This document shows positions 5,349-6,233 of a DNA stretch of 64,000 nt, piece by piece (position 1 is the stretch's first letter; every line of letters starts with the position of its first letter). Source of the DNA: an uncultured bacterium (GTDB taxonomy: Bacteria; Cyanobacteriota; Vampirovibrionia; Gastranaerophilales; Gastranaerophilaceae); assembly GCA_902791985.1 (NCBI GenBank), contig CADAYD010000008.1, forward strand, positions 62,001 through 126,000, in the 5' to 3' direction. The notes under the pieces are model-generated. The model was not told the origin of the DNA. It saw only the letters and a program-made list of their open reading frames with translations, and searched no databases. The position numbers were made by a program, and so were the translations under genes.

Positions 5349-5376
5349 CCTCCCCGATGGGGGAGGTTAGGAGGGG
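5349..5376 (+). repeat. Left terminal inverted repeat of the DUF559 unit
   Basis: G/C-rich 28-mer containing CCTCCCCGATGGGGGAGG, able to form its own hairpin, followed by TTAGGAGGGG. Its inverted partner is at 5748-5775. Confidence 0.8.
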
Positions 5377-5382
5377 AAATAT

Positions 5383-5721
5383 CTATTTGAGATATTCAAT
5401 AATTTTGTTAACAACTTCCTCAATATTTTCATCAATATCACAATTCCAAAATCTTATTACATTAAAACTTCTTGATTTTAAATATTTTGTTCTTTCATTG
5501 TCATAATTTATATTTTGTTGTTCATTATGTTGTCCGCCATCAATCTCTATAATCAAATTTTTTGAACGGCAGACAAAATCAACAATAAAATTTCCAATAG
5601 GATATTGGCGTCTGAAACGGCAATTATTTATTTGATTATTTCGCAGATAATACCACAGTTTCTTTTCTTGTGGAGTCATATTGTTGCGTAATTGTCTTGC
5701 TTTTATGTGTATTTCATCCAT
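5383..5721 (-). CDS. DUF559 endonuclease-domain protein
   Basis: A 112-residue protein of the DUF559 family (PF04480), which has the PD-(D/E)XK fold related to very-short-patch-repair endonucleases. Visible signatures are the N-terminal ARQLRNNMTPQEKKLWYYLR, the core FRRQYPIGNFIVDFVC, then the catalytic-type LIIEIDGGQH (Asp and Glu/Asp residues about 61-79) and VIRFWNCDI near the end. It is complete. Its tight enclosure by inverted repeats suggests it moves, or is moved, as a unit. Nicking or cleavage at the repeats is an inference. Confidence 0.85.
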   Translation of the reverse strand: MDEIHIKARQLRNNMTPQEKKLWYYLRNNQINNCRFRRQYPIGNFIVDFVCRSKNLIIEIDGGQHNEQQNINYDNERTKYLKSRSFNVIRFWNCDIDENIEEVVNKIIEYLK

Positions 5722-5747
5722 AAGTCAGTTATATCATGAAAATTGTA

Positions 5748-5775
5748 CCCCTCCAAACCTCCCCCTTTGGGGAGG
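5748..5775 (-). repeat. Right terminal inverted repeat of the DUF559 unit
   Basis: The reverse complement reads CCTCCCCAAAGGGGGAGG followed by TTTGGAGGGG, matching the left repeat except at the hairpin loop and one position in the tail. Confidence 0.8.
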
Positions 5776-5816: not shown

Positions 5817-6233
5817 TTAGAATAACAATGAATGTCCCGTGCACATTTCTTTGTTAATACTGCCGAAACGTTGTCTAATATTCTCTGTTAATCCGTGCAA
5901 ATAATCATATAAACAATATTTTTCATACGGCAATTTTCTTGAAATTTGACCTATATCAACTTTGCCATTTTTAGGGAGTTTAACTTTAGTAATAGGATTA
6001 TCAAGTACATCATATACAACCATTTTTGCTTTACCATTATATGATTGTTCATAAGCAACAAGCCTTTCCGTTTCTTGATCATAATATTTTACCCACTTCA
6101 TACCTTTAGAAGTTTCTCCGCCATATCTAGTCAATATTCTTCCTTCGCTAAACAATTCTTGTGCAACTTGTGGCATTCTTCTTCCGTATTTTCCTGCCAA
6201 CCCATCAAGAAATTTAATCAACATACCTGACAT
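5817..6233 (-). CDS. Hypothetical protein, 138 residues
   Basis: A complete cytoplasmic-looking protein with no recognised domain. The N-terminal 30 residues form an amphipathic stretch (LIKFLDGLAGKYGRR). A central beta-rich part carries RLVAYEQSYNGKAKMVVYDV, which looks like short repeated strands, and the C-terminal part is helical. The ATG at 6233 has AGGA about 9 bases upstream. It is a single gene divergent from mfd. The N-terminal style (short hydrophobic stretch, then FLDGL) resembles the 125-residue protein at 31714-32091, but I cannot assert homology. Confidence 0.6.
   Translation of the reverse strand: MSGMLIKFLDGLAGKYGRRMPQVAQELFSEGRILTRYGGETSKGMKWVKYYDQETERLVAYEQSYNGKAKMVVYDVLDNPITKVKLPKNGKVDIGQISRKLPYEKYCLYDYLHGLTENIRQRFGSINKEMCTGHSLLF

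Follow-up and report, generated by a model that had tools for sequence, protein, structure and literature searches.

A DUF559 nuclease gene framed by inverted triplex-code repeats, probably a member of a widespread REPtron-like mobile family

The repeats closest to those described here are the intrastrand triplex repeats PIT/TM (TMECO), which were treated by Holder et al. 2015 (PMC4666352), where Hoyne and Maher are also cited, and which occur in 23 copies in E. coli K-12 and in more than 260 genomes (PMC4666352). TMECO forms a stable triplex in vitro, CD and NMR being the physical criterion. A stable triplex is absent from the in vivo footprints of the E. coli TMs, and TMs have neither promoter nor terminator activity (PMC4666352). 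The same paper reports no gene association and names no enzyme, and the words 'endonuclease' and 'DUF' are absent from its text. Intrastrand triplex repeats have been catalogued in hundreds of bacteria, tied to genome instability and seen to fold in vitro, with their origin and the protein that reads them left open; our searches found no published mobiliser of PIT/TM repeats. A second system, REP/RAYT (REPtrons and TIRtrons; PMC3733652), resembles the present locus in its layout: one small nuclease gene is flanked by palindromic repeats in inverted orientation, lone repeats and clusters occur elsewhere, and the repeat families are gene-specific. On the side of the enzyme, the E. coli protein YcjD was earlier assigned to the PD-(D/E)XK superfamily, near Vsr (PMC1189080), and the Caulobacter DUF559 protein VsrA induces the SOS response when the cell has no methyltransferase of a given kind and is seen by its authors as a mismatch-repair enzyme (PMC12907096). 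Searches for DUF559 with 'inverted repeat' or 'triplex' found no paper (subscription papers and preprints lay outside the search, and priority is unproven). The repeat and the enzyme fold are known separately, and their union as one element family is absent from the literature searched.

The locus under study lies in a 64-kb window, by which we mean the whole stretch of DNA analysed, from a 1.9-Mb genome of Ca. Gastranaerophilales. A DUF559 (PF04480) gene at 5383..5721 on the minus strand encodes a predicted PD-(D/E)XK nuclease of 112 aa (Pfam E 2.7e-39; 133.8 bits against a curated cut-off of 20.6). To its left, on the plus strand, a hairpin of the PIT/TM triplex-code type (5349..5376) reads CCTCCCC-GATG-GGGGAGG-TTA-GGAGGGG and comprises a 5' arm CCTCCCC (5349-5355), a loop GATG (5356-5359), a 3' arm GGGGAGG (5360-5366), a linker TTA (5367-5369) and a mirror foot GGAGGGG (5370-5376). 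The right repeat (5748..5775, minus strand, read 5775-5748) is an inverted copy, CCTCCCC-AAAG-GGGGAGG-TTT-GGAGGGG, with its 5' arm at 5775-5769, loop AAAG at 5768-5765, 3' arm GGGGAGG at 5764-5758, linker TTT at 5757-5755 and mirror foot GGAGGGG at 5754-5748, so that both feet are directed at the gene. The initial annotation, made from the letters of the window, had described 28-mer inverted repeats matching at about 25 positions, a CCTCCCC/GGGGAGG hairpin within each, and an endonuclease gene as the sole content between them. Our analysis bears out this description: the repeats are identical at 25/28 positions as an inverted pair, compared with 19-23/28 for the best inverted 28-mer pair no more than 600 nt apart in 20 Markov-resampled windows, each hairpin has a 7-bp stem and a 4-nt loop, and the DUF559 open reading frame alone occupies the interval. 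The third block of each repeat, the mirror-symmetric purine foot, had been overlooked. When the foot is included, the full triplex-type motif occurs at these two positions of the 64-kb window and no others, and in none of 30 resampled windows.

The same genome holds further hairpins of this kind. A second DUF559 gene on contig C14 has hairpins of a different sequence on both sides, a copy without a gene, CCTCCCCTCAATAGGGGAGGTTAGGAGGGG, lies by itself on contig C4, and others are scattered through the genome. Such lone copies, whose occurrence the initial annotation had proposed to check, are thus present, and were counted by pattern rather than in a full census.

A total of 197 distinct repeat elements were parsed. 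They have a common design of pyrimidine arm, loop (mostly 3-5 nt), purine arm, linker and purine foot, the linker being 3 nt in 153/181. The 3' arm read backwards, without complementing it, gives the foot, and this match is perfect in 156/197 elements with A and T pooled; compared with shuffled arms, this mirror rule gave a z of 21 (12.9 in the window's bacterial family and 12.4 in other phyla). A foot formed as a direct copy of the arm was considered and rejected, with 69 perfect cases vs 156 for the mirror. An arm G is opposite a foot G in 1075/1095 positions, while the foot base opposite an arm A is A in 175 cases, T in 142 and G in none. An antiparallel intrastrand triplex has the base code G·GC, A·AT and T·AT. 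The mirror between foot and arm is this code, which the window repeats follow exactly (arm GGGGAGG, foot GGAGGGG).

The design is that of PIT/TM repeats, which likewise consist of a pyrimidine arm, a short loop, a purine arm, a 3-nt linker and a mirror purine third strand, and which are scattered, multi-copy and sometimes arranged as inverted pairs. The PIT/TM motif is defined by a stem of 6-15 nt, short loops and a third strand that follows the triplex code, all within one DNA strand, and both window repeats have 7-nt arms, a loop of 4, a linker of 3 and an exact mirror foot. The window differs from the PIT/TM repeats of E. coli in having 7-nt CCTCCCC arms, not CCCTCNCCC; its arms (CCTCCCC/GGGGAGG) depart from the literal TMECO consensus CCCTCNCCCN3-6GGGNGAGGGN3GGGNGAGGG, which other DUF559 loci approach. 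The motif flanking DUF559 genes is the known PIT/TM repeat. The window repeats are tied to DUF559, whereas PIT/TM repeats were described apart from any enzyme (PMC4666352).

The pairing of DUF559 genes with inverted repeats was evaluated in 91 DUF559 domains from the window's bacterial family, 89 of them with full flanks, and was scored positive when the local inverted-repeat score between a gene's own left and right flanks was at least 15. A cognate inverted repeat was detected at 73% of the 89 genes, about one quarter having none. Among 243 control ORFs taken from the same loci the frequency was 0.8%, and among mismatched flank pairs it was 9%. Within each locus the left arm matches the right one, and the arms vary between loci. 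A named-genome scan of other phyla (Pseudomonadota, Desulfobacterota, Chloroflexi, Moranbacteria, Nitrospira, Spirochaetes and others) gave 63 DUF559 loci, of which 75% had a cognate inverted repeat vs 1.6% of 309 control ORFs, a percentage slightly too high because locus L228 scored from a masked N run and L219 from a C homopolymer. Viral contigs held only 17 DUF559 loci. Loci with more similar proteins also tend to have more similar repeats (Mantel r 0.21 and 0.27, with 0 and 2 of 500 permutations as high), and shared neighbourhood ancestry may add to this correlation.

A strict triplex-motif detector, applied within 250 nt of each gene, located the motif near 61.8% of DUF559 genes in the window's family and 61.7% in other phyla, with inverted motifs on both sides in 36% and 30%, respectively. 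The same detector found one motif near 2.9% (family) and 9.7% (other phyla) of control ORFs, and inverted pairs near 0%. Within the same distance it found no motif at 29 RAYT genes or at 16 Vsr genes; inverted repeats of other kinds, present at 45% of the RAYT genes, served as the positive control. The association with triplex repeats is specific to DUF559. Tandem triplex-type arrays beside DUF559 genes (contig C28:32075-32488 of G074, by L075, and the 3' side of L069), with periods of 132 nt and about 45 nt, recall BIMEs.

The number of repeats also follows the gene. The hairpin pattern CCTCYCC-N2-8-GGRGAGG was counted in 146 genomes of the window's bacterial family, the hairpins flanking DUF559 genes included. 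Their inclusion makes low counts too high; the tens to hundreds observed in many genomes are not inflated by it. At least two hairpins were present in 44/51 genomes with a strong DUF559 match vs 20/95 without (odds ratio 23.6, p 1e-14), and the mean number was higher with DUF559 in 15 of the 17 genera holding both kinds of genome. Since eleven DUF559-negative genomes have at least 5 hairpins and up to 54, a present-day DUF559 gene is not required for hairpin presence. Hairpins numbered 28-54, with no strong DUF559 match, in G028, G046, G083, G092 and G105. Hairpin-rich genomes of this kind have either lost DUF559, carry it in an assembly gap, or are subject to another enzyme. RAYT was considered as the mobiliser of the triplex repeats and rejected, as 0/29 RAYT flanks have the motif, the whole window genome has no Y1_Tnp match, and the copy-number contrast persists among genomes without RAYT.

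The window element is intergenic, with no intron or intein recognised around it, and in its embedded relatives the reading frame stays open through both repeats. DUF559 with both repeats was found in frame within PriA, PrmA, a GHMP kinase (IspE-like), an M14 peptidase, UvrD-type helicases and a radical-SAM protein. The PriA unit lies ahead of the Walker A segment, within a variable linker, and, in one genus, is present in two genomes (G094, G035) and absent from two others (G114, G065). In another genus the PrmA unit is present in 2/38 genomes, where the insert spans repeat to repeat, and most of the others have one frame of about 300 aa. Empty relatives have loop-coding sites without the repeat, and the repeats arrive together with the gene. 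On a tree of DUF559 domains, a single origin suffices for PriA and for the radical-SAM protein, and the insertions into M14, UvrD-type and IspE-like genes must have arisen more than once; the M14 peptidase site was entered by unrelated DUF559 lineages. Palindromic units also lie in frame in protein-coding genes as Rickettsia palindromic elements. Going by description alone, these resemble the DUF559 units in being palindromic and in frame; to our knowledge, they contain no nuclease gene. Target-site duplications of at least 3 nt, the direct duplications typical of a classical DDE insertion sequence, were seen in 3/65 DUF559 units vs 2.5 expected by shuffling and are not detectable above that background.

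At the window site itself, a precise filled and empty pair for the 427-bp unit was sought in six same-genus relatives, and none was present. The site is polymorphic by a larger block, since the relatives lack the continuous segment 5250..6461 (1,212 bp), and their adjacent protein is 92-95% identical. This difference is either an insertion in the window genome or a deletion in the relatives. Beside the DUF559 element, the block contains a 138-aa ORF (5817-6233, minus strand) with no Pfam match.

An AlphaFold2 model of the window protein (pLDDT 89) was compared with known structures and was closest to 3hrl, a Neisseria DUF559 protein (Z 15.4), followed by I-Bth0305I (Z 12.1) and Vsr (Z 10.5); TnsA, at 7.3, scored too low to count. 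Sequence searches agree in returning 3hrl (5e-33) and 3r3p, which is I-Bth0305I (2e-4), and E19, D48, E59, D61 and H65 are invariant in 40 DUF559 sequences. The modelled protein has a nuclease fold of the Vsr/I-Bth0305I-like PD-(D/E)XK kind in common with these two enzymes. It differs from Vsr in lying outside the Pfam Vsr family (PF03852), and Vsr genes of the same bacterial family lack such repeats. Pfam matches of the window gene are to DUF559 and MTES_1575 only, and PF03852 has no match in the window genome. The SOS induction by Caulobacter VsrA is compatible with an active nuclease.

The link between DUF559 and the repeat extends to E. coli, where the motif was first described. In K-12, ycjD is a DUF559 gene and TM copy 9 (1351204-1351239) adjoins it. 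An intact element at ycjD was considered and rejected, as the 5' repeat is missing and the paired layout is lost, and the E. coli element is degraded. A 12-nt difference at the ycjD end corresponds to the foot of the triplex motif lost in K-12 (L131 2896-2920 vs L296), which agrees with the 12-nt ycjD length difference reported for ST69 and ST182 (PMC12817139). The ycjD gene is missing from about 38% of the strains matched, and in some lineages among these the eef operon is found at the same place.

We regard the window element as probably belonging to a widespread family of small mobile elements that resemble REPtrons and combine triplex-coded ends with a PD-(D/E)XK nuclease akin to Vsr and to homing endonucleases. 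As in a REPtron, an inverted pair of palindromic repeats encloses the gene, and such repeats are also found on their own; RAYT belongs to the HUH tyrosine transposases and its gene flanks lack the triplex motif, whereas DUF559 is a PD-(D/E)XK nuclease. The initial annotation had read the locus as a REP-type element in which a Vsr-like nuclease takes the place of a transposase. The core of that reading stands on the comparative evidence: sister elements at PriA and PrmA have both filled and empty sites, most homologues carry repeats, and synteny is not conserved. The evidence gave no support for a 427-bp unit as the piece inserted here, for target duplications, or for an autonomous or active element. 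In this family an inverted foldback pair frames the gene, and gene-less repeats are scattered in the same and related genomes. When single-stranded, each repeat can fold back into a hairpin with the foot lying as third strand on its 3' purine arm, in keeping with the antiparallel triplex code. In the mechanism that we infer as the most probable one, a hairpin or triplex extruded while DNA is replicated or repaired would be recognised by the DUF559 protein at its cognate ends and nicked or cut there. Repair would then copy the gene-bearing unit or a lone repeat to new sites, including in frame into protein loops, and on lone repeats the enzyme would act in trans. A broader proposal, which we put forward tentatively and at somewhat less than even chances, is that these elements form an undescribed class, with intrastrand-triplex hairpin ends read as folded DNA and moved by a single-domain Vsr-like PD-(D/E)XK nuclease without a transposase. 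From this class the PIT/TM repeats of more than 260 genomes, those of E. coli with its ycjD included, would derive, and its members would enter housekeeping genes in frame.

The main rival to a mobilising nuclease is a passenger role, in which the repeats are spread by some other enzyme, or by replication and repair at the foldback itself, and DUF559 genes ride between them. The eleven DUF559-negative genomes with 5-54 hairpins, the absence of target duplications and a polymorphic block at the window site larger than the unit all speak for such a role. We nevertheless consider it unlikely, because the same gene family lies between cognate repeats in many phyla, Vsr and RAYT genes are not so flanked, copy number follows DUF559 with or without RAYT, and protein and repeat co-vary. 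The kinship of fold and sequence with I-Bth0305I, and the entry of unrelated lineages into one M14 peptidase site, would also suit a homing-type selfish nuclease that cuts lone repeats or loop-coding sites and has its gene copied by break repair, the repeats being target or protection sites and not transposon ends. This appears quite improbable, as the repeats accompany the gene into coding loops that are repeat-free in empty relatives, and lone repeats are multi-copy at unrelated sites. Hairpins near both ends of the gene could be only transcription terminators or mRNA ends, or the gene could be a resident Vsr-like repair enzyme, as the role given to Caulobacter VsrA by its authors (PMC12907096) would suggest. 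We consider either highly improbable, given that in-frame units read through both repeats, lone copies occur genome-wide, a terminator does not account for the mirror foot, TMs lack promoter and terminator activity (PMC4666352), and the true Vsr family is without such repeats.

Under the preferred reading of DUF559 as mobiliser, the enzyme is the first candidate spreader of the PIT motif, a widespread repeat of unknown origin, and the question of that origin becomes testable with small proteins, E. coli YcjD included. The reading further points to a role for this large domain family of unknown function, and to a way in which short repeats, without a transposase, may spread and enter protein-coding genes.

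Other repeats were also seen. A lone repeat of the same class lies elsewhere in the corresponding intergenic region of L103 and L108, two of the six same-genus relatives, and is absent from L102 and L106. In L110, a CGTC-like REP (CGTCATTCTGAGGCGTGAGCGCCGAAGAATC) occupies a position syntenic to the window site; CGTC repeats are without association with transposase genes (PMC3733652). In L010 and L108, other palindromic repeats, GTTGGGGTTTCTACCCCAAC and GTTGGGCTGAAAGCCCAACTTAC, adjoin triplex-type repeats and apparently form a separate repeat family.
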